Below, piece by piece: positions 18,296 through 61,078 of a DNA stretch of 64,000 bases; positions within the stretch are counted from its first letter, which is position 1; every line of letters starts with the position of its first letter. The notes below the pieces were generated by a model. It was not told the DNA's origin and ran no database searches. It saw nothing but the letters and a program-made list of their open reading frames with translations. Source of the DNA: Candidatus Gastranaerophilales bacterium (GTDB taxonomy: Bacteria > Cyanobacteriota > Vampirovibrionia > Gastranaerophilales > Gastranaerophilaceae). The stretch covers positions 1 through 64,000 of the forward strand of contig CALUQG010000008.1 in NCBI GenBank assembly GCA_944322855.1, given 5' to 3'. Position numbers and translations under genes: made by a program.

Positions 18296-19198
18296 ATGAA
18301 AAAACTATTTCTTATATTTCTGATAATGTTTTCTGTTTCTCTGACGGCATTTGCTGCGAAATACAAAATTAACACCTCGGGGAAAGTTACAGCTCCGGGT
18401 GGAAAGACTCAAAACAGCAGTGCCTTATCTAATACACCTAATTTTTACAATAACTACTATTCAGGAAATTATGTATCCTCTAAACAGGTATTGTCTCAAA
18501 AAGCAGGAACAATTGATATTGTAATGGATTATTCAGGCAGTATGTATTACTGGATTAATGAGGCAAAAAACTCAATGTCAGCAATAGTTTCGCAGCTGCC
18601 AACAAGCACAAAAATCGGGTTCAGAGTTTTCGGGCACGACGGAGGAAACAATCCTTATACACCGGTACTGGCTAAAGTAAAAAGCATTGCAAAAGGAAAA
18701 AACGGCAACTACAAAGTTACTGCATCAACAGCTTCGTATCTTGGAAACACGTCAGGCTCCTGCAGTGCAACTACTCAGGTGGCAAAAGTTGTACCTTATA
18801 ATACATCAGCTCTTTTAAGCGGAATGAATTCTGTAAGCATCGGAGGTTCAACACCGATGACTCTTGCCTTAAAACAAGCTGTAGAATTTGATTTTGCAGG
18901 TTTGTCGACAAATTATCCTAAGAAAATTATACTGATTACGGACGGGGGAGAAAACTGCGGAGGTGATCCTTGCCGTTTTGCTGCAAATCTCGTCAGACAA
19001 AGAAAAGATATCATTGTTGATGTTGTGTTAGTATCATCAAATTCTACAGAACTCCGATGTCTTTCAGACACAACAGGCGGAAACTTCTATACACCATCAG
19101 ATCTTTCTTCTTTCACATCATCGCTTATCCAATCAATGAATAATGCTGTACAGAAAGAACCTCAGGAAGTCAAGCAAAAATACGAGTTTGTTGATTAA
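18296..19198 (+). CDS. Secreted von Willebrand factor A-domain protein (vWA-1)
   Basis: A 300-aa protein with a Sec signal peptide (MKKLFLIFLIMFSVSLTAFAA) and a Ser/Asn/Tyr-rich linker, then a vWA domain from ~70. The MIDAS metal site is complete: DYSGS (D78, S80, S82), GGSTPMT (Thr) and ITDGGENCGGDPC (Asp). Cysteines Cys-GGDP-Cys and SCS/LRC may form disulfides. It probably acts in the periplasm or on the surface as a metal-dependent binding protein. It ends 2 bp from the convergent zinc-ribbon/TonB_C gene, opposite a six-gene operon that holds a second vWA protein. GGAG six bases upstream supports the start. Confidence 0.85.
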   Translation: MKKLFLIFLIMFSVSLTAFAAKYKINTSGKVTAPGGKTQNSSALSNTPNFYNNYYSGNYVSSKQVLSQKAGTIDIVMDYSGSMYYWINEAKNSMSAIVSQLPTSTKIGFRVFGHDGGNNPYTPVLAKVKSIAKGKNGNYKVTASTASYLGNTSGSCSATTQVAKVVPYNTSALLSGMNSVSIGGSTPMTLALKQAVEFDFAGLSTNYPKKIILITDGGENCGGDPCRFAANLVRQRKDIIVDVVLVSSNSTELRCLSDTTGGNFYTPSDLSSFTSSLIQSMNNAVQKEPQEVKQKYEFVD

Positions 19199-19200
19199 AA

Positions 19201-20163
19201 CTAATTTAAATCAACCTCAAAATTGCCTCCGTACATTTTTACGGATAGTTTCAGCGTTTCATTTTTGTATGCAGCCGGTGGAGGATTGTATGCAGGTGTC
19301 TGCATTACTGCCGCATACACTGCATCGTTCAGGCTGTCGTTGTTTGATAGTTTTGAAAAAGCACGATTAGTTAAAACACCTGAAGGAGAAATTTTAAAAG
19401 AAATAACGTTCTGTCCGTCGCCAACAACAGCTGCAAAGTTTATTTTTGAAGCTATTCTATTTCTCAAGGCTATTTTGTAATTTAATAACTCCGCTTTTGA
19501 AGCAGCAGTATTTATTTTTGGTTTTTGAATAGATTTCGATTTCTGAATAGCAGAACCTGTATTTTTTCTAGCAGTAGAAGTAGGCGAAGTTTTTTTTACT
19601 GCAGGTGTTGTTTGTTTTACCTGTTTATTGGTGTTGTTTTTTTTTACAAGCGATATATTTTTTTGAGGCTGCGGTATTGTTCCAGCATTGTCAGTCACCG
19701 GTTCTGATTTGGGACTTTGAGATAAATCTTTTGAAATAGGTGCAGACTCTTGCCACAGAGCGTCAATTGACGGAATATTTTTATTCTTTTTCAAGATTTT
19801 TTCTTTTTTGGGCTGGCTATTTTCCTGCAAAGTATTGTCATCTTGATTTTTTGGTGCACCTATAAAGATAACAGACAAAATCGAAAGAATAATACAGAAT
19901 ACAAATATTGCCCATGAAAGTTTTTCTTCATTAGTTTGAGACTTTTTAGGTGTGTGTGAGAACAAAGAAGAAGTCGTATTATTTTCATAATTTGAATAAT
20001 CCTGTTTCTTATCTTCTTCATGATGAGAAAACATCTCTGCCTGCTCATTTTGTTTTTCTGACACATCTGCGGCTAAGGCTATTTCGTCGAAAATATTGTT
20101 TCCGCAATCGCAATAGTCCGGTTTTGATGCAAATTCCTGTCCGCATTCACTACATTTATACAT
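19201..20163 (-). CDS. Zinc-ribbon, single-TM protein with TonB_C-like domain
   Basis: A 320-aa protein. The N-terminal CSECGQEF...CDC is a short zinc ribbon (C4, C7, C18, C20). An acidic stretch, one TM helix (~83-105, LSWAIFVFCIILSILSVIFIG) and a Lys/Thr/Pro-rich linker (~115-225) follow. The C-terminal ~95 residues (VISFKISPSGVLTNRAFSKLSNN...) have the TonB C-terminal pattern, so the protein would span from cytoplasm to periplasm. No ExbB/ExbD or TonB-dependent receptor is nearby, so classical TonB energy transfer is not supported. Last gene of the operon, 3 bp after the second TonB_C-like gene. Confidence 0.75.
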   Translation of the reverse strand: MYKCSECGQEFASKPDYCDCGNNIFDEIALAADVSEKQNEQAEMFSHHEEDKKQDYSNYENNTTSSLFSHTPKKSQTNEEKLSWAIFVFCIILSILSVIFIGAPKNQDDNTLQENSQPKKEKILKKNKNIPSIDALWQESAPISKDLSQSPKSEPVTDNAGTIPQPQKNISLVKKNNTNKQVKQTTPAVKKTSPTSTARKNTGSAIQKSKSIQKPKINTAASKAELLNYKIALRNRIASKINFAAVVGDGQNVISFKISPSGVLTNRAFSKLSNNDSLNDAVYAAVMQTPAYNPPPAAYKNETLKLSVKMYGGNFEVDLN

Positions 20164-20166
20164 AGA

Positions 20167-20874
20167 TTAATTCCTTATTTTTTCTATATCTTTGTAATCA
20201 GCCGGTGTACTGTATTTTGATGTCTGAGAAATTTTCCAGCCGCCTTCAACTGTTGTAACCATTCTGTTAGAGCCGGCAGGAAAATCCAGAATGCTTCTTC
20301 CCTGATAGCTTTTTATAACCGGGGCAATATATTGTATTGCATACGGTGTATATTGGGGTGATGTCGACCAGGTTGAAAGATTTGAAATTTTTCCGTACTT
20401 ATCTACATCAAACTTAAATCTAAAAACAGTTCCCTGCTCAACTATCGGGAGCTTAACATCCGTCATTATCCTGTTTTGCAAATCAGAGCGCCACTTGTTC
20501 CAGAGGATAACCTCCTGTTGTTGAGTTGAAGTTGATTTATTAGTTATAGATTGAGGCTGATATTTTTTTACTGATTTTTGTACAACAGGTGTATTAGATG
20601 TCTTTTGAGAAACAGTCTTTTTTTGTATGGAAGGTTTTGATGCTTTTTTTTCTATAGTTCTGTTTTGAATTGTTTTTGTTTCTTTTATTTGTTTTGTCGT
20701 ATTGTTTTTTTGTGGGAGTGATTTTGTTTCACTAATAGATGTATCCTTAACTTCAATTTTGTAATCAGCATCATAGGCAAAAAGCTTTTTATGCATTTGT
20801 GGTCTAAAAGTTGCTGCACAAATTGTTGTCAAAGAAAGTAACAATATTAAAACTGTAAAAAATACCTTATACAA
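20167..20874 (-). CDS. Secreted/anchored TonB_C-like protein
   Basis: A 235-aa protein with an N-terminal signal or anchor helix (VFFTVLILLLSLTTICA), then RPQMHKKLFAYDADYKIE, a long Lys/Gln/Thr-rich linker (~45-125) and a C-terminal domain (RSDLQNRIMTDVKLP... TVFRFKFDVDKYGKISNLSTWS) that follows the TonB_C pattern. Its first ~45 residues resemble those of the 63-aa protein that opens the operon (helix followed by P-x-M-H-K). Function unknown; periplasmic localisation inferred. Confidence 0.7.
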   Translation of the reverse strand: MYKVFFTVLILLLSLTTICAATFRPQMHKKLFAYDADYKIEVKDTSISETKSLPQKNNTTKQIKETKTIQNRTIEKKASKPSIQKKTVSQKTSNTPVVQKSVKKYQPQSITNKSTSTQQQEVILWNKWRSDLQNRIMTDVKLPIVEQGTVFRFKFDVDKYGKISNLSTWSTSPQYTPYAIQYIAPVIKSYQGRSILDFPAGSNRMVTTVEGGWKISQTSKYSTPADYKDIEKIRN

Positions 20875-20889
20875 TTTATTAACAACCGC

Positions 20890-22485
20890 CTATTCTCTGT
20901 CTAATTTTGATATTATGCCGTCGCAGGCATAAGTTTCAAACTTTGTCTGGCTGAGCATATAAGTTTCTGCAATCAATAAAGCTGTAGGGACAAGCGCTGC
21001 AACGCTGCTAAGAAACATACCGCCAAGATCTCCGCCAATTTCCTGCATAAAATATGAAATATTCATAGAAAATTCAATAAATATGATACAAAGTCCGATT
21101 ATAAATGAGCGGCGCATTTCTATATCAAGTTTTTTTACACCTTGAAGACCGTAAATTTCCAGTCCATGCTGCATGTAATTACTAAAGCCGTCATTTTTTA
21201 TTACATTTGAAGCCTGAATTTTCTTATTTGAAAGAAAAGCATTTACAAAAGCAAAGAATGCAAAAATAATCATACAAGAAGCAAGAACAAGAAATACAGG
21301 GCTGAATCTCAAGCCTGAAATTCTAACCCAGCCTGCAGCTTCCGGAAAACACATTGCAAGGGTGTTTGATACACCATAAGCAAGAAACGGCGCTGTCAAA
21401 ATACCGAGAATAGTTTCGCCGACTGCTTTTATTTGTAATGTAAATAGTTTATCTTTGATATTTCTGATTTTTACAGAGCTTAAATTATTAACAAATCTTT
21501 CTATCCAGAGCTGATACTCTTTCACAACCTGCTCAAAGTCCTCTCTGTATTCATATCTGTTAAGGTCTTTAGATATTTCTACATTACTGCTTTTGAAATA
21601 TCCGCAGCCTATCGCAGCAGTAACACATGCTGCAGTGAAGAACAGAGACATAAATACTGCAAAAAACGGCATTGAACCAGGTGCTAAATAGTATAACATG
21701 TTTATTAAATATACACCGGCATAAAATAGCGATGAAGCAACAAGAAGAGCTTTTTCCGCTATTGTGCTGCTGTCATTTTGCTCAAGCCTGTTTTGCAAAA
21801 GCAAAAATACCCCCTGTTTCATTATCAAACCTATTCCGTATAAAATAATCGAATAAACAAACAGCAGCTTTAAATTAACAGGCATTTGAATGATACTACC
21901 GGCATCTTTAAGCGGCAGACCTGTTAAATAATTTGAAACTCCGAAAGACAGAATCAATGATGCTGCATACAATGCTATATGAAGCACTATGCCTGTTTTA
22001 GAATTCATTGAGAGTTTGTGTTTTAAATCATTTATGTGATAAGAAACCTGTTTGATTATAGCAATTCTTGCTTCTTCTATTTCAGATTTTCTTTTCTCTA
22101 TTTTCAATCTTGCTGCTGTATTAACATCTTTTCCGTATAAATCTTTCAAATCCTGTTCAGTCATTTGTTCAGCAGCAATTTTTACATTGCCTGACACGTC
22201 ATTTAGTTTTATTGTAATAAATTCATCAGAATCTCTTACCATAATTTTGCAAACTTTTTCTATTTCAAGTTTTTGAGGCAGTGGCTGACCTTTGAATAGA
22301 AAGTTCTGACAGTTGAACTGGTTTAGCAAAATACACTTTCCTGCCTGTGCATCAAACTGAACTGTCAGCATAAAGTCAAAACCGGTATTTAGAAAATAGT
22401 CAAAACCTTCTTTTGATGAAATATTTACTAATTCATTATTATCAAAAGTTTTTTCATTATTTTTTGTAATTATGGTAAAGCTCAT
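20890..22485 (-). CDS. Multi-pass membrane protein with FHA-like N-terminal domain
   Basis: A 531-aa protein not recognised as a known family. The first ~95 residues look like a degenerate FHA-type beta sandwich (ILLNQFNCQNFLFKGQPLP... KIMVRDSDEFITIKL). A charged amphipathic stretch (~100-150) comes next, then about eight TM helices, some separated by soluble segments (~290-350 and ~430-450). Repeated small-residue TM segments such as FFAVFMSLFFTAACVTAAIGCG are visible. It sits between vWA-2 and the TonB_C-like genes with 10-15 bp gaps, and is likely the membrane core of this locus. Confidence 0.7.
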   Translation of the reverse strand: MSFTIITKNNEKTFDNNELVNISSKEGFDYFLNTGFDFMLTVQFDAQAGKCILLNQFNCQNFLFKGQPLPQKLEIEKVCKIMVRDSDEFITIKLNDVSGNVKIAAEQMTEQDLKDLYGKDVNTAARLKIEKRKSEIEEARIAIIKQVSYHINDLKHKLSMNSKTGIVLHIALYAASLILSFGVSNYLTGLPLKDAGSIIQMPVNLKLLFVYSIILYGIGLIMKQGVFLLLQNRLEQNDSSTIAEKALLVASSLFYAGVYLINMLYYLAPGSMPFFAVFMSLFFTAACVTAAIGCGYFKSSNVEISKDLNRYEYREDFEQVVKEYQLWIERFVNNLSSVKIRNIKDKLFTLQIKAVGETILGILTAPFLAYGVSNTLAMCFPEAAGWVRISGLRFSPVFLVLASCMIIFAFFAFVNAFLSNKKIQASNVIKNDGFSNYMQHGLEIYGLQGVKKLDIEMRRSFIIGLCIIFIEFSMNISYFMQEIGGDLGGMFLSSVAALVPTALLIAETYMLSQTKFETYACDGIISKLDRE

Positions 22486-22494
22486 AAATGTCTC

Positions 22495-23163
22495 CTATCT
22501 TCCGATTGCCTCTAAAAGTTTTCGTGACGACTTTTCAGCGGTTTCTTCATTTACTACAATCAATCTTTTCTCTCCCAGCACAGGGGTGAGCTTTGTTTTA
22601 ACAATATCCAGTTTTTCCGGATGCGCATATGCAAACATCATAGAAATTTCCGGTACATATTTTTTTATATTTTTAACATTTTGAGGCAATGTGTCCCAGT
22701 TAATCTGTTTTGATACTTCACCTTCGTTTTCCAAATCACCGATAACAACAATCGCAGGAATATAGCCTTCTTTTTTCATATTCAAGGCATGTTCAAAAGC
22801 TTTTTTCAAAGCTTCTCCGTATGCAGTTCCGTATTTTTCACTGTCATATTCTGTGAATTTTTTAAGAGTTTTATTAATGGCAGAATTGTCCATCGGCGAT
22901 CCTTCATAAATCAAATATGCTGTTTCGGTTACATTCAATATCTTTATACTATCCTCCGGATCAAGCACTGAACAAATTGATTTAAGATATTTTTTCTCTT
23001 CTTCAAGCATTGTCTGGTTCGATGCCGATGAATCGACAACAAAAATAACAGACGCAGGATGAAACTCATCTACTTTTATATTTTTAATTCCGACATAAAT
23101 CAACTTTCCTATAACGGAACATACAAGTATCAATACACCTAAAATTATTAATCTTTTATTCAT
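22495..23163 (-). CDS. Membrane-anchored vWA-like protein (vWA-2)
   Basis: A 222-aa protein with one N-terminal TM helix (RLIILGVLILVCSVIGKLIYVG) and a vWA domain. The MIDAS start VVDSSAS (D44, S46, S48) is intact; the third motif reads VVIGDLENEGE. No long loop insertions. The domain would face the periplasm. Eight bases separate it from the upstream gene. It may bind the same target as vWA-1 or assemble with the membrane protein downstream. Confidence 0.75.
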   Translation of the reverse strand: MNKRLIILGVLILVCSVIGKLIYVGIKNIKVDEFHPASVIFVVDSSASNQTMLEEEKKYLKSICSVLDPEDSIKILNVTETAYLIYEGSPMDNSAINKTLKKFTEYDSEKYGTAYGEALKKAFEHALNMKKEGYIPAIVVIGDLENEGEVSKQINWDTLPQNVKNIKKYVPEISMMFAYAHPEKLDIVKTKLTPVLGEKRLIVVNEETAEKSSRKLLEAIGR

Positions 23164-23171
23164 CTCTTCCT

Positions 23172-24209
23172 CTAATAACTTAATACTACATTCACAGGCT
23201 TATTCAAAACGACTTCCATATCTGTATAAGAAGGTATTTCTGCATCAACACCTTTTTGAATAGCAGATGTGGCAAGAGCGCCTCCTCCTCCTATACTCGC
23301 TCCAATAATAGCACCCTGAGCGAGATTTGATGTGTCTCCGGTAAGAGCAGCAATGCCGACTCCCAAAAGAGCTCCTACTGCGGCCATAGCAACTGTATTT
23401 GTTATTGTCCTTTTAACTTTGCCTTCGTTTGTTACATCAAAATCAATTTTTTCTGTAGAAATTTCTATCGTTTTATTCTTCGGGGTAACGAGTTTGTTAA
23501 ACACTATGCTGACAGAACCGTTTCTGGAACCGGCTGTAGCATGATTTGCTTTTGTCAGTGTACCATACAATAGACTCCCCTGAGGTGCCACTGTACATTC
23601 TTTATAAATCCAGTCATTTTTTACAACAGCAATGACATTGTCGCCTTTTTTAGCAGTTGCTGTATTTATCGGGTTTTGCAGATACACATTCAGTTTTGTT
23701 CCTGCATCAATCTTTCCGACAAAACCTTTTAATGTAGTAGATGTTGTATTTTTTTGCGCTGTTTTAACAGAAGTTTGTTGTTTTTTAGGTTCTTCAAAAG
23801 AATAAATCTTTTTCTGACCGGTCATTGTTCTATAGGCAATTTGCGCAAAATTATTCAAATGCTGCTCATTTTCTGATTGTTCGTATACGATATCTGCTTT
23901 TTTAAATGTTTTAATGATTTTTTTGTTAAGTTTTTTGTTTTTGTCATTCGATTCATAGTAATAAAACAAATTTTCTCCGCTTTGCTGCAAAACAACAACC
24001 GCATAATTTTCCTGTTTCTTTTTAGAAATTGCATAAAACGGATTTTTTTTCTGTATATTATATTCTTCTTCGTTCAATACAGTTTCAACCTGGTTTGAAA
24101 TTGTTTTTGTGTCAACATTTTTTAGATAATACAATTCACTAAACGCAAAACAGGCATTGGAAGATATAATGTACATAAAACATAGAATTAAAGACCAGAA
24201 TTTTTTCAT
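23172..24209 (-). CDS. Secreted protein with VirB10/TrbI-like barrel and glycine-zipper segment
   Basis: A 345-aa protein with a signal peptide (LILCFMYIISSNACFA), an N-terminal ~120-residue region rich in Lys/Asn, a Gln/Thr linker, and a domain at ~165-265 whose pattern (DAGTKLNVYLQNPINTATAKKGD... APQGSLLYGTLTKA... GSRNGSVSIVFNKLVTP) resembles the VirB10/TrbI C-terminal barrel. A Gly/Ala-rich stretch (AAVGALLGVGIAALTG... GAIIGASIGGGGA, ~275-320) follows, like a glycine-zipper membrane segment. No other type IV secretion genes are here, so the resemblance is structural only. Overlaps the preceding 63-aa gene by 4 bp (ATGA). Confidence 0.65.
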   Translation of the reverse strand: MKKFWSLILCFMYIISSNACFAFSELYYLKNVDTKTISNQVETVLNEEEYNIQKKNPFYAISKKKQENYAVVVLQQSGENLFYYYESNDKNKKLNKKIIKTFKKADIVYEQSENEQHLNNFAQIAYRTMTGQKKIYSFEEPKKQQTSVKTAQKNTTSTTLKGFVGKIDAGTKLNVYLQNPINTATAKKGDNVIAVVKNDWIYKECTVAPQGSLLYGTLTKANHATAGSRNGSVSIVFNKLVTPKNKTIEISTEKIDFDVTNEGKVKRTITNTVAMAAVGALLGVGIAALTGDTSNLAQGAIIGASIGGGGALATSAIQKGVDAEIPSYTDMEVVLNKPVNVVLSY

Positions 24210-24397
24210 TTATTTATCCCTTTTAAATTTGTCGTTGTAATCTGCTTGGTTGTCGTCATAGAACCGTCATTGTTGAATTTTAGTACATATTCAATTATAT
24301 TCAGCTGAAAAGTTTTGTGCATTTTAGGTTTAACAATACAAAATGAAACGGTAAAAATTATTATCAAAATAACAAAGAGTATTGTAAAATGTTTCAT
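24206..24397 (-). CDS. Small single-TM protein opening the vWA/TonB_C operon
   Basis: A 63-aa protein: one hydrophobic helix (FTILFVILIIIFTVSFCIV), then KPKMHKTFQLNIIEYVLKF and a Thr-rich tail. The segment after the helix resembles the same region of the 235-aa TonB_C-like protein (RPQMHKKLFAYDADYKIE). The four-base ATGA overlap with the next gene supports it being translated. Function unknown. Confidence 0.6.
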   Translation of the reverse strand: MKHFTILFVILIIIFTVSFCIVKPKMHKTFQLNIIEYVLKFNNDGSMTTTKQITTTNLKGINK

Positions 24398-24522: not shown

Positions 24523-26259
24523 CTAGCAATTTTCAAGCATTACTCTTTTTGAAATCTCAAAGTCAGGAAGATCATTTCCCTCTTTGATATCAAGCGGATT
24601 GGGGTTTTTCATCCAAAAATCTATAGAATCTTTATGGATATAGTTTTTGGCTTTTGATGTAATTATATCTATAATTTCTTCTTTTGATTTGTCTTCGTAA
24701 GCATCAATTCCGGCGAAATCCAGGACTTTTATAAAATTATTTTTCATAACATAAAAAGCATTTTCCAAGCCACGTGAATTTTTTGCAGCTCTTGTTTCTG
24801 CAGGATTAAGAGGCAGACCAGAAGGCTGTTTCATATCAATTTTTTCATCCTGCACTCCATCTTTAAGTTTTTTCACATTTTTATCACCAATTACCGGTGC
24901 GAGATCCTCAATGTCATTTGCTGTAAGCAAATAACCGTTATGAAAATTATCCACACTTATCGAAACAGGTCTGTATGAAGTTCTGAAATTTACAGCTGCA
25001 TTGCAGCCTTGAGCGTCGAGAGAAATATCTATATTCGGTACTTCATATCCATTTTGGAATAAAAGTACTTCTCTAATCGTCAAAGGTTTTGTTTTATCTA
25101 CTCTGTGCTTGTCCAGATAATACAGAGCATATCTTAAAATATCAACAGTACCTTTCACATCAGAAAAAGCATCATGCGCATTCTCCATATTTTTGCAGAA
25201 AAAGTATCTGTACTGGTTTGAAAGCCTTTTGGATGTACCGACATACGGATGTATACGCTGAATAAGTAAAAACGGATCTATTACTTTAAAATATCTTTTG
25301 GGTTTCAATTCGTCTGCAGAAAAGCTGTTGTGTTCTTTTATTGCATTGTTTAGCATTGTTATATCAAACTGTGAGTTATAAGCAACAATTATTCCGTTTT
25401 TTTTATTTAAATAGTTATTGACAAAAGGCTTAAGCACCTGCTCCATAACAGGTGCATTCTTGACATCCTTATCATAAAGCCCGTGAACAGCTGAAGCCTG
25501 TTCCGGAATATGAATTTCCGGGTTAATAAGCTGACTCATTGCCGTTTCTTCTACGATTTTTCCGTTTTTAATCTGTATTGCGCCAATTTGTATAATCTTG
25601 TCCAGAGGACGAGACCTGTCAGAGGTATTTGTCCCTGTTGTTTCAGTATCAAAGACTACGGCATCAATGCATAAATGTCCGTTTTTATCAGTTATTGGCT
25701 TATCAAGAGACTTGTGCCGTCTTGTATCAAGAAGTTCCTCTAAATTAGATGCAAAGGATTTATCCAGATATATATCTTTTCTTAGTTCTTTAGACGGTGG
25801 TTCTTTAACATAACGTGAGTCAATTGAATGTGATGTTGCTAAAGCTTTTTTTCTGTTTGTATAATTAAATCTTCTTACCCAGGAAGACTCATAACCTTCT
25901 GCAAGAGCATTGGCCTGTAAAAACACATAAAATTCTCTTGGTGAAGCAGTCTTCCAGTTTAATGGTTCTTTGCTCAAATGCTGCCATCCGACTTTGGAAA
26001 AATCATACCACTCAGCAGTTCCTATTTCATTTTTTTCCATAAGCCCGAGGCCCTGATATTTTTTATCCGTAACTTTTCTTGTGAAATTATTCTCAAAATA
26101 ATCACCCTTGAAACTTGGTATAAATCTGCTCAGAAAAATTGCTCGATAGTCAACAGCTTGAAAAGATTTTTCTTCTGTTTTCGGTTTTGAAACAACAGAT
26201 GCCGTAACAGGTATCTTATTTTGAATATTTGTATAAAAATTTACGGGTAAAATTTTCAT
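24523..26259 (-). CDS. DEDDh 3'-5' exonuclease-domain protein with SFKG N-terminal tag
   Basis: A 578-aa protein. A ~195-residue N-terminal region contains IPSFKGDYF (49-52 = SFKG). A DnaQ-like exonuclease domain spans ~198-380 with all catalytic residues: D204/E206 in VFDTETTG, D299 in NSQFDITML, and H362/D367 in AHDAFSDV. A ~200-residue C-terminal region has no recognised domain. It is much longer than DNA polymerase epsilon subunit or RNase T. AGG eight bases upstream supports the ATG. Only 2 bp separate it from the phospholipase-D gene, so they are co-expressed. Substrate unknown. Confidence 0.82.
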   Translation of the reverse strand: MKILPVNFYTNIQNKIPVTASVVSKPKTEEKSFQAVDYRAIFLSRFIPSFKGDYFENNFTRKVTDKKYQGLGLMEKNEIGTAEWYDFSKVGWQHLSKEPLNWKTASPREFYVFLQANALAEGYESSWVRRFNYTNRKKALATSHSIDSRYVKEPPSKELRKDIYLDKSFASNLEELLDTRRHKSLDKPITDKNGHLCIDAVVFDTETTGTNTSDRSRPLDKIIQIGAIQIKNGKIVEETAMSQLINPEIHIPEQASAVHGLYDKDVKNAPVMEQVLKPFVNNYLNKKNGIIVAYNSQFDITMLNNAIKEHNSFSADELKPKRYFKVIDPFLLIQRIHPYVGTSKRLSNQYRYFFCKNMENAHDAFSDVKGTVDILRYALYYLDKHRVDKTKPLTIREVLLFQNGYEVPNIDISLDAQGCNAAVNFRTSYRPVSISVDNFHNGYLLTANDIEDLAPVIGDKNVKKLKDGVQDEKIDMKQPSGLPLNPAETRAAKNSRGLENAFYVMKNNFIKVLDFAGIDAYEDKSKEEIIDIITSKAKNYIHKDSIDFWMKNPNPLDIKEGNDLPDFEISKRVMLENC

Positions 26260-28238: not shown

Positions 28239-28359
28239 ACTCAGAACCTCACAACCAGTTCTTTTTTCATTATGTAAGGTCATGAACTATCAGGCAATAG
28301 TTTGTTACGAAAATTTCATATTGCACACAATTTTTCAAAAAAAATGCTATAAAAGAAAT

Positions 28360-29745
28360 ATGATATCACCTGTTTCTTTATATTCTTATAATAAAAGAAC
28401 TGCAGTAAACAATCACAGCAGTCAGCAATACCTGTATAATCCGGTCTACTACAGGAAAAAACAGGATACTGTTGAAATCTCGTTCAAAGGTTCTTCTATA
28501 GTTGACAATCTTACTTTCAAATTTAAAAATAAAATCTTTGAAAAAGATGCGATGACACCTGGCAATCCGAATTGGGCAAAAGCTGTTCAAAGATATTCAT
28601 CAATAGAAACAAAAGAAAATGAAATACGTTCGGATTTTGAAAGAGACAGAAATCGTATAATGCACACGGAAGGCTTTGACAGAATGCGTTTTAAAGCTCA
28701 AGTCTTTCCTGTTTGTGAAAATGATATGGTTTCAACAAGAAGCTCACATGTGCTGCAGGTCTCTGATATTGCAAGGAATATCTCTAAAAAATTAGGGCTG
28801 AATGAAGAACTTGCTGAAACAATAGCAATGGGGCATGATATCGGTCATTCTCCTTTCGGACACGACGGAGAAAAATCTTTAAAGAATATAACGATCAAAG
28901 AAGGACTGCCGCTTTTCTGGCATGAAAAAAACAGTCTCAGAATGGTTGACAAAATTCTTACATTAGAAAACAGCAAAGGGAAATTGAATAATCTGGGACT
29001 TACTTACGCTGTTCGTGACGGAATCATCAACCATTGCGGAGAAGTTGATGATAATTTTATTAAACCCAGAAAGAATATCTTAAATCTCGAAGAAATCTCT
29101 TCGCCCGGCAAAGTACAGCCATACACCTGGGAAGGCATAATTGTAAAAGTTTCCGATAAAATTGCATACCTTGGCAAGGATATTGAAGATGCAACCAAAA
29201 TGGGGATTTTTACTAAAAAAAATCATCAGGAACTTAATCAAATTTTGAAAAAATATTTACCTGACACAGATTGCCAGTTAAACAACACGTATCTTATTAA
29301 TCTTTTTGTAAATGACCTGATAAAAAACTCATCACCGCAAAAAGGTATTGGCTTTTCAAAACCTGTTTATGAATTAATGAAAGAAATAAAAAATTACAAC
29401 TATGAACATATCTATCACGCAAAAGGAGTGAAAGCTCTTTCGCAAAAGCAGTGTGATGAAATTATTGAAGGCATATTTTATACATACAAATCTATGTATA
29501 AAGGGAAAGATACAATAACATACTTGGAGACTTTTAATAATCCATACATTTCAAACTTCAAAAATTGGCTTGTGAAATATTCACAGTCATCTGAGCGTCC
29601 TCCTGAATTTTGCAATAAAATTCTTTATGATATTTCAAAGCCCGAAGATTACAAACAGGCAATTGTTGATTATATCTCAGGAATGACTGATAAATATGCT
29701 ATAAAAACATTTCAAGTACTTACAAAAAGAAATGTTATGCCATAA
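28360..29745 (+). CDS. HD-domain dNTP triphosphohydrolase (Dgt-like) with SFKG tag
   Basis: A 461-aa protein related to dGTPase. The signature RNRIMHTEGFDRMRFKAQVF, SSHVLQVSDIARNI (H130) and AMGHDIGHSPFGHDGE (HD at 159-160) give the metal site; KVSDKIAYLGKDIED supplies the last Asp. Residues 1-60 are an extension with VEISFKG (40-44). The reaction is probably dNTP to deoxynucleoside plus triphosphate. ATG 28360 is preferred because a start at 28282 would run into the divergent PLD gene and adds 26 residues with no domain. Tail overlaps the convergent peptidase gene by 11 bp. Confidence 0.85.
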   Translation: MISPVSLYSYNKRTAVNNHSSQQYLYNPVYYRKKQDTVEISFKGSSIVDNLTFKFKNKIFEKDAMTPGNPNWAKAVQRYSSIETKENEIRSDFERDRNRIMHTEGFDRMRFKAQVFPVCENDMVSTRSSHVLQVSDIARNISKKLGLNEELAETIAMGHDIGHSPFGHDGEKSLKNITIKEGLPLFWHEKNSLRMVDKILTLENSKGKLNNLGLTYAVRDGIINHCGEVDDNFIKPRKNILNLEEISSPGKVQPYTWEGIIVKVSDKIAYLGKDIEDATKMGIFTKKNHQELNQILKKYLPDTDCQLNNTYLINLFVNDLIKNSSPQKGIGFSKPVYELMKEIKNYNYEHIYHAKGVKALSQKQCDEIIEGIFYTYKSMYKGKDTITYLETFNNPYISNFKNWLVKYSQSSERPPEFCNKILYDISKPEDYKQAIVDYISGMTDKYAIKTFQVLTKRNVMP

Positions 29746-59326: not shown

Positions 59327-60094
59327 ATGGATTTTACATCATTAGTAGGTGTATTTTTCGGAATAGTGTGTATCCTGATTGGTCAGGCGCTTGAAGGCGG
59401 TAATGTTGGACAGCTTTTACAGATTACAGCTGCATTCATTGTATTTGGCGGTACCGGCGGCGCTGTTTTGTTAAGCTTTTCGGTTGAAGAACTTAAAAAC
59501 GCACTTTTGTTATTAAAAGATGTCTTCTTTGGAGAAAAGGTTGATTTTGAGGAACTCATTGCTGAAATTATAAAATTTGCAACAAAAGCCAGAAGAGAAG
59601 GGGCTATTTCTCTTGAAAAAGAAGCAAGAAACGCTTCTGATACTCTTATGGTAATGGGGCTTGAAGCTGTTGCTGACGGTACAGACCCTGCACTTGTTCG
59701 ACAAATGATGGAAACTCAGATTGCGGTGCTTGAAGAAAAAGTCGGAGGCGCTGCAAAAGTTTGGGAATCCGCAGGCGGTTTTTCTCCTACAATCGGTATT
59801 ATCGGTGCGGTTTTGGGGTTAATTCAGGTTATGCAAAACCTTTCTGACCCATCGAAACTAGGTGCAGGTATTGCTGTTGCATTTGTTGCAACTGTTTATG
59901 GTGTTGGTGCTGCAAACTTGATATTTATTCCGTTTTCTACAAAGTTGAAAACTAAATATAAAAAAGTATTTCTTAAAAAAGAAGTTATTGTTGAAGGAAT
60001 ACTTTCTATACAGGCAGGCGAATCTCCTGCATTGATTGAACGTAAATTAATGTCGTATATTCTTGATAGTCACATGAGAGAAGAAACTTTGTAG
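59327..60094 (+). CDS. motA: Flagellar motor stator protein MotA
   Basis: A 255-aa stator subunit with four TM helices. TAAFIVFGGTGGAVL early and FSPTIGIIGAVLGLIQVMQNLSDPSKLGAGIAVAFVATVYGVGAANLI are the MotA/ExbB-type signature; the cytoplasmic loop carries charged residues for FliG contact. GGAG upstream of the ATG. Followed by motB after 12 bp. Confidence 0.94.
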   Translation: MDFTSLVGVFFGIVCILIGQALEGGNVGQLLQITAAFIVFGGTGGAVLLSFSVEELKNALLLLKDVFFGEKVDFEELIAEIIKFATKARREGAISLEKEARNASDTLMVMGLEAVADGTDPALVRQMMETQIAVLEEKVGGAAKVWESAGGFSPTIGIIGAVLGLIQVMQNLSDPSKLGAGIAVAFVATVYGVGAANLIFIPFSTKLKTKYKKVFLKKEVIVEGILSIQAGESPALIERKLMSYILDSHMREETL

Positions 60095-60106
60095 GCATAA
60101 TAAAAT

Positions 60107-61078
60107 ATGGCTAGAAAAAAGAAACCTGAAGAACATGAAAATTTGGAACGCTGGCTTGTGTCATATGCTGATTTTATGACACTTTTGTTTGCGACTTTTG
60201 TTGTTCTTTATGCTCTTTCTCAAATAAACGTTAATGAATTTAAGAAAGTTGAAGAATCATTGAAAAAAGCATTTAGTGTACAATCAATTCTTGATGGCGG
60301 CAGTGGTGTGATGTCATCAGGAAACTCCGTAATGGACACCAGTGCCGCAGATTCTGTTATTGACAATCTTTTAATGGAATATATAAGTCCCAGATATGAG
60401 CAGGAGTCTTATGAAAAAATAAAAAAAGAAGTAGAAGACCTTGCAAAATCAGGTGAAATGGATGGTGTTAGCGCAACTATTGATGAAAGAGGTCTGGTTA
60501 TTATTATAACAGATAAAAATATACTTTTTGCTTCTGCGTCAGCGGAGTTAAACGCTAATGCCAAAAAGCTTCTTGATAAAATAGGAAAATTAATTATTGA
60601 GAAATTTGCTATGCATTCGATTCGTGTGGAAGGTCATACGGACAGTCTGCCAATCAGCGGCGGAAAATATCCTTCTAACTGGGAATTGTCATCAGCAAGA
60701 GCTTCTTCTATTGTTAGATATTTGATTGACAGATTTCATATTCTGCCTGATTTGATGTCTGCTGTCGGCTATGCTGATACAAGACCTGTTGATACAGCAA
60801 AAACACCTGAAGCTCTTGCTAAAAACAGAAGAGTTGAAATTGTCGTTCAAAGAAATCAATACAAAAATCTTGATCATTACCAAAATACATATATTAAATT
60901 AGGCAAAACCGAGCAGCAAAGAAGACGTAATGAACAAATAAAGATAATAAAAGAGATTGAAAATAACGAAATTGAATCGCTCGGTGATGATATTCATCAT
61001 TCTTCGGAAATGTCAGAGTATTCTAATGATTTTCTTGAGGAATCAAGAAGAATTGAAAAACTCTCAGGTTCAAAATAG
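60107..61078 (+). CDS. motB: Flagellar motor stator protein MotB
   Basis: A 323-aa protein: a TM helix with the proton-carrying Asp (SYADFMTLLFATFVVLYAL, D22), a plug/linker region, then an OmpA/MotB peptidoglycan-binding domain (ILFASASAELN, VEGHTDSLPIS, NWELSSARASSIVRYL, NRRVEIVVQ). The C-terminal ~50 residues are charged and extend past the domain. It forms the stator with MotA. No other flagellar gene is in the window. Confidence 0.94.
   Translation: MARKKKPEEHENLERWLVSYADFMTLLFATFVVLYALSQINVNEFKKVEESLKKAFSVQSILDGGSGVMSSGNSVMDTSAADSVIDNLLMEYISPRYEQESYEKIKKEVEDLAKSGEMDGVSATIDERGLVIIITDKNILFASASAELNANAKKLLDKIGKLIIEKFAMHSIRVEGHTDSLPISGGKYPSNWELSSARASSIVRYLIDRFHILPDLMSAVGYADTRPVDTAKTPEALAKNRRVEIVVQRNQYKNLDHYQNTYIKLGKTEQQRRRNEQIKIIKEIENNEIESLGDDIHHSSEMSEYSNDFLEESRRIEKLSGSK

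Follow-up and report, generated by a model that had tools for sequence, protein, structure and literature searches.

Genes of the locus

The locus described here occupies positions 18296–24397 of a 64 000-nucleotide stretch of DNA (the window; contig C8 of genome G000) from a metagenome-assembled genome of the Gastranaerophilales, uncultured bacteria that are related to Cyanobacteria and common in the gut, and about whose surfaces very little is known; related named contigs are mostly assigned to Candidatus Gastranaerophilales. All seven genes that an initial annotation had placed there were found as open reading frames (ORFs), and six of them do form the tightly packed operon that it had claimed: they run on the minus strand from 24397 to 19201, spaced about –4 to 15 bp apart, in the order smTM–TrbI-like–vWA-2–MP–TBC2–TBC_zr. 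The seventh, vWA-1, is on the plus strand and converges on the operon, its stop lying 2 bp from the last gene, TBC_zr. Together these six to seven genes appear to specify the components of a single, previously undescribed machine, which would extend from inside the cell to its outer surface. Mean column identity among homologues is 81% for vWA-2, 67% for MP, 61% for vWA-1, 57% for the TrbI-like protein, 44% for TBC2 and 36% for TBC_zr. Scans of the locus for promoters and terminators stayed at shuffle level or below, and a PADLOC search of it gave nothing better than E 0.007, so that a reading as antiphage defence was dropped.

The two vWA proteins are recognized by Pfam (6e-10 and 3e-7) and have, as first described, an intact metal ion-dependent adhesion site (MIDAS), the letters of which are kept in 46 of 46 homologues of vWA-1 and in 46 of 49 of vWA-2. 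vWA-1 (18296–19198, plus strand) is a secreted protein with conserved cysteines and a C-terminal QxYEF motif. vWA-2 (22495–23163, minus strand) has an N-terminal transmembrane (TM) helix followed by a periplasmic vWA domain; the helix contains neither histidine nor aspartate and carries a lysine, K20, which most of the paralogous minimal loci described below lack. Comparison of the profiles of the two proteins gave only a weak match, limited to the first MIDAS motif, so a particular relationship between them is not claimed.

The TrbI/VirB10-like protein (23172–24209, minus strand) has a signal peptide, an α/β N-terminal domain (residues 23–131) and a region (residues 161–345) that matches the C-terminal barrel of VirB10 from many type IV secretion system (T4SS) cores (Foldseek E 1.4e-6). 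Its match to TrbI in Pfam, at 31.8 bits, falls below the 35-bit cut-off; the barrel proposed in the initial annotation is confirmed by structure, comparison with VirB10 of X. citri (6gyb_C) giving a Z-score of 13.1 and 2.6 Å over 116 residues. The glycine zipper of this secreted protein forms a hairpin inserted at the position of the VirB10 antenna, the hairpin itself being modelled with low confidence. The model as a whole (mean predicted local distance difference test score, pLDDT, 69.6) is weaker than that of MP (79.9).

MP (20890–22485, minus strand) is a multi-pass membrane protein with an FHA-like head, as had been recognized from the sequence. Structure prediction confirms the fold for residues 1–100 (Foldseek probability 1.0; Z 12.2 and 2.1 Å over 93 residues against FHA-1 of Rv1747, 6ccd). 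The domain, predicted to be cytoplasmic, is degenerate: when the phosphothreonine site is located by sequence pattern, its Arg, Ser and Asn prove not to be conserved over 61 MPs, and N55 is the sole invariant residue of the region. This weakens a reading in terms of phospho-signalling and makes a phospho-independent docking role for the head more likely, as far as conservation can indicate. The remainder of the protein consists of about eight TM helices, in two halves that can be aligned to each other (146 columns, E 5.7e-4) and have an FGVSN-type motif in common, which suggests that MP probably arose by internal duplication of a four-helix unit. Six residues (K223, R388, D432, H440, E471 and N475) are invariant in 61 of 61 sequences, and E471 and N475 lie in a TM helix. 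Searches by sequence found no relative of MP in the PDB and only sub-threshold matches in Pfam and NCBIfam; a profile search detected no similarity to TolQ, and Foldseek with the full-length model returned, beyond the FHA head, only weak ABC/MATE-like rows with TM-scores of 0.10–0.17. In genomes of genus g6, the FHA domain of MP also occurs as a lone gene of 99 aa (L109:8387–8686 and L110:9021–9320, both minus strand) beside a MarR/HlyD/MFS/OEP efflux cluster, a neighbourhood that gives no clue to its function; some of these genomes (G069, G172) carry the full operon as well.

TBC_zr (19201–20163, minus strand) has a cytoplasmic CxxC…CxCG zinc ribbon, a TM helix, a long linker and a TonB_C domain that scores above the Pfam gathering score for TonB_2 (PF13103). 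TBC2 (20167–20874, minus strand; TTG start) has an N-terminal TM anchor, a PxMHK motif, a long K/Q/T-rich linker and a TonB_C-like end. The earlier description of both as TonB_C-like proteins is thus secured by Pfam for TBC_zr; TBC2 has no Pfam match, and its label is weaker since it comes from a match between its profile and that of TBC_zr (E 7.5e-7 over 50 columns). A histidine in the TM helix was found in none of 27 TBC2 and none of 26 TBC_zr sequences. The first gene of the operon, smTM (24206–24397, minus strand), encodes 63 aa with a single TM helix and a PxMHK motif and matches the TBC2 profile. In smTM and at the N-terminus of TBC2 (20780–20874) alike, PxMHK comes after a TM helix, which gives the impression that one was derived from the other. 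The small PxMH ORF was seen only where vWA-2 is present too, and in none of the 13 TrbI-bearing loci that lack vWA-2, although these loci are not independent of one another. An assignment to GltJ was considered and rejected, the weak NCBIfam match (E 0.0099) falling in a low-complexity linker.

Conservation, modularity and distribution

The search for the operon in related genomes that had been suggested as a check was carried out by way of MP and yielded 42 loci. In these the order smTM–TrbI–vWA-2–MP–TBC2–TBC_zr, facing vWA-1, recurs; the exceptions are at contig ends and in some loci from which vWA-2 and/or smTM is absent, and vWA-1 is at the same convergent position in most. The scattering in relatives that random neighbours would be expected to show did not occur. 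The six flanking genes of the window that were tested are found at none of the 42 MP loci, and clustering of all neighbours gave no further family common to most of them. The window's flanking genes sit on unrelated contigs within the same genus, where the order of the genes surrounding the locus is mostly not preserved. Against such low synteny the operon stands out, and because its order is kept while the tested flanks differ, the genes are not random neighbours. Elsewhere in the window, two otherwise unrelated genes, one exonuclease-like (24523–26259, minus strand) and one HD-hydrolase-like (28282–29745, plus strand), both have a short region at the N-terminus in which a similar S-F-K-G motif occurs; it might be an N-terminal tag peculiar to this lineage.

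Among Gastranaerophilales, 195 of 286 genomes, from 31 of 50 genera, have MP, often in two to three copies, and within the same genus some members are without it; by linkage, its distribution is taken as that of the whole unit. In a sample of the phylum, every MP match among the matches listed belongs to this family. Other phyla were covered for MP by one close-relative scan, and a search of plasmids for MP gave no match. The genome-wide checks reported here were done as searches.

Reduced paralogous loci show the unit to be modular. Some consist of vWA-2–MP–TBC2 only (L104, L106, L107, L108); others (L098, L100, L101, L112) lack vWA-2 but retain TrbI–MP–TBC2–TBC_zr, accompanied by one to four copies of vWA-1. 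MP, a TonB_C protein and at least one vWA protein therefore form the part that nearly all the loci seen have in common. The identity matrices of the operon genes correlate at 0.61–0.84, which is compatible with joint inheritance together with exchange of modules. Among other arrangements, L103 (5571–15809) has a tandem pair of MP-type operons, one full and one cut down to vWA-2–MP–TBC2, and loci that lack vWA-2 can have an array of two to four vWA-1 genes in tandem, pointing away from TrbI (L100:3672–7439, L098:11069–12864, L112:5163–6969). A secreted surface-type protein of about 870 aa, with, by eye, a repeat region and a barrel-like C-terminal end, is found next to the operon at its TrbI end in 11 loci, in either orientation (L032:5361–7979, L050, L056, L057, L060, L061, L063, L064, L069, L070, L071); it has no Pfam match.

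A related core cluster elsewhere in the genome

There are no ExbB or ExbD genes in the operon, and no MotA_ExbB match was found near MP in G000, G076, G081, G206 or G031. The initial annotation was therefore right that ExbBD is missing from the neighbourhood, though a MotA-like and a MotB-like (OmpA-domain) gene lie side by side in the window (59327–61078, plus strand), 35 kb from the operon, and an ExbB/ExbD/ExbD/TonB set is present on another contig. At least one MotA/ExbB homologue occurs in each of the 12 genomes tested. The ExbB-type homologue of G000 belongs to a cluster BamA–VirB10-like–TonB–ExbB–ExbD–ExbD on contig C9 (L119:3875–9532), in which the label BamA comes from visual inspection of a POTRA-like start. 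The part from the VirB10-like gene to the second ExbD (L119:5888–9532, outside the window), referred to here as the core cluster, recurs both in G031, where the operon is present, and in G093, where it is absent; it is also seen at L121, L122 and L124–L153. Its TonB was found in 284 of 286 genomes of Gastranaerophilales; in all 30 loci inspected this core TonB is flanked by VirB10-like, TolQ and ExbD genes and has, in its TM helix, an LHP motif with the motor-contact histidine.

The TrbI-like protein of the operon matches the core VirB10-like protein over 187 columns (hhalign E 2.9e-32), and the TonB domain of TBC_zr matches core TonB over 84 columns (E 4.6e-6). By these profile matches, part of the operon and an Exb/Ton-type set have a common ancestry, but none of the known motor determinants is present in the operon; those parts may stem from a duplicated core set. 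It should be noted that identity between MPs does not track identity between core TonB proteins. In G076, G100, G129, G088 and G154, which are of the same genus, MP identity is 65–68% versus 76–78% for core TonB, and in g3, g6 and g16 genomes the corresponding figures are 70–75% and 53–60%. To judge from these identities, the pattern fits equally transfer between members of the family and the sorting of ancient paralogues.

VirB9/CagX (PF03524) was found in none of the 12 genomes, nor was TolB (PF04052), for which control genomes gave matches; the Plug domain of TonB receptors was found in one, which is not the genome of the window. The usual partners of VirB10, TolA and, with the exception of that one genome, TonB are therefore not available in these genomes. 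The near-universal VirB10–TonB–ExbBD cluster thus belongs to a lineage with almost no TonB receptors or TolB; as a candidate for the outer-membrane partner of the core TonB cluster, the VirB10-like protein suggests itself. The absence of TolB led to Tol-Pal being dropped as an explanation of the operon.

A possible trans-envelope complex and its alternatives

That the genes constitute one envelope unit is well supported by the kept order, the differing flanks and the placing of the components from cytoplasm to outer membrane. In the arrangement that we propose, MP would be an FHA-capped platform in the inner membrane, its head in the cytoplasm, with vWA-2 docking onto it from the periplasmic side; vWA-2, TBC2, TBC_zr and smTM would all be anchored in the inner membrane. 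The linkers of TBC2 and TBC_zr appear long enough to span the periplasm, such that their TonB_C ends could reach the VirB10-like protein, which in turn may assemble, by means of its glycine-zipper antenna, as a ring either within the outer membrane or against it. vWA-1 would be a secreted, metal-dependent, ligand-binding effector of the adhesin type, held or displayed by the ring. The FHA–8TM platform and the vWA proteins would stand in place of a motor.

Since ExbB, ExbD and the motor-contact histidine are missing, such a complex would most likely be a static or self-energised tether. The reading that we prefer, to which we give about even weight, is that the locus encodes an accessory trans-envelope complex acting as a static or self-energised tether or sensor for adhesion, as opposed to a transporter driven by ExbBD; by analogy, its role is probably adhesion or surface sensing. 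Of the envelope-spanning signalling or adhesion machine first envisaged, the envelope unit thus stands on its conserved order, phospho-signalling is weakened, and adhesion is a matter of interpretation. Several points weigh against the preferred reading. The contacts between the proteins are inferred, and the adhesion role is argued from the vWA/MIDAS analogy. vWA-1 might stay periplasmic, and an unusual mode of ExbB binding may operate despite the missing TM histidine. The match of TBC2 to core TonB is weak (E 0.0014), so that shared descent from a common ancestor can be taken as firm for the VirB10-like part, that of the TonB part being tentative. Finally, the modularity of the unit, with vWA-2 missing in several loci and paralogous loci that are reduced, implies that not every part is needed.

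The main rival, which we consider unlikely, is a force transducer driven by the proton-motive force, in which vWA-2 and the TonB_C proteins would pull on the outer membrane, energised either by MP as a new ion-coupled component or by the genome's ExbBD acting in trans. It has in its favour the charged and polar residues that are invariant in the membrane helices of all 61 MPs, the lysine K20 in the TM helix of vWA-2, the inner-membrane-tethered vWA protein adjoining TonB_C proteins, the ExbB/MotA homologues of all 12 genomes and the precedent of the vWA transducers proposed in PMC12204202. However, the operon has no ExbB or ExbD, the motor histidine is absent from the TM helices of both TonB_C proteins, that of vWA-2 has neither His nor Asp and its K20 is not kept in most paralogous minimal loci, and MP is not detectably similar to TolQ. 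Less probable than this is a secretion or display system in which the VirB10-like ring would be an outer-membrane pore and MP an inner-membrane gate for the export of vWA-1 and/or the large neighbouring surface protein. The barrel with its antenna hairpin, the 11 loci where the surface-type protein adjoins the operon and the one to four copies of vWA-1 are consistent with it, but the operon encodes no ATPase, VirB9 is in none of the 12 genomes, the minimal paralogous loci lack both the VirB10-like gene and vWA-1, and export to the periplasm is already provided for by signal peptides and Sec.

A bolder proposal, to which we attach a somewhat smaller chance again, is that MP and vWA-2 make up a new inner-membrane energiser, unrelated to ExbB, TolQ or MotA, that powers force transduction by the TonB_C proteins to the VirB10-like outer-membrane ring, with vWA-2–MP–TBC2 as its minimal form. 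It is improbable that the genes are merely a co-transcribed, functionally loose set for the envelope: the loss of modules in paralogous loci and correlations of just 0.61–0.84 between identity matrices could be so explained, but not the order kept over deep divergence with all tested flanks different. A relic of type IV secretion or conjugation machinery, suggested by the TrbI/VirB10-type barrel, is very improbable and was dropped, as VirB9 is absent from all 12 genomes, the VirB10 relative lies in the core ExbBD cluster and not beside conjugation genes, and MP has no match on plasmids; nor was a VirB4 or VirB9 homologue seen in linkage with any copy.

Comparison with known systems

The core cluster resembles the operon in its related VirB10-like protein with a glycine zipper, its TonB domain of the TBC_zr type and its linker-rich TonB proteins. 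It differs in having ExbB, two ExbD proteins and the TM histidine (30/30), in lacking MP, FHA and vWA components, and in being near-universal, not accessory. With the TonB/ExbBD system in general the operon shares a TonB C-terminal domain on a TM-anchored, linker-rich protein, but it has no ExbB/ExbD with the transducer and no TM histidine of the SHLS type, and its genome has no receptor Plug domain. The outer-membrane core of T4SSs (VirB10/TrwE/CagY/ComB10) has the same C-terminal barrel fold with an antenna position. Unlike that core, the operon is found in genomes without VirB9 (12 examined) and has a signal peptide in place of the inner-membrane anchor of VirB10; the ATPases VirB4, VirB11 and VirD4 are not encoded in the operon, the genome not having been searched for them.

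Two further systems bear on the vWA and FHA components. It has been proposed that vWA proteins tethered in the inner membrane act as force transducers beside TolQ-like motors (PMC12204202, 2025). The operon likewise has a TM-anchored periplasmic vWA protein near genes for force transmission; it differs in that TolQ does not adjoin it, that the SHLS motif and a TM aspartate are missing, and that MP and two TonB_C proteins are present instead. GltG of the Agl-Glt gliding machinery of Myxococcus is listed as combining FHA and TonB (PMC3169522). An FHA domain and TonB_C segments thus occur within one trans-envelope system there as here, but in the operon they are on separate proteins, MP is unrelated and no motor is encoded. 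The AglRQS motor and the TPR proteins GltD/E were looked for in the operon only, and are absent from it. The zinc-ribbon/TM/TonB_C architecture of TBC_zr recalls GltJ, and the putative vWA adhesin recalls CglB. The locus resembles trans-envelope force and tether systems (Exb/Ton, Agl-Glt, the vWA transducers) and fails at least one defining feature of each. It brings together four envelope themes that are otherwise separate, namely a putative VirB10 ring, TonB transducers, vWA proteins and an FHA membrane platform, and a trans-envelope system once linked to a motor may here have been re-used without it.

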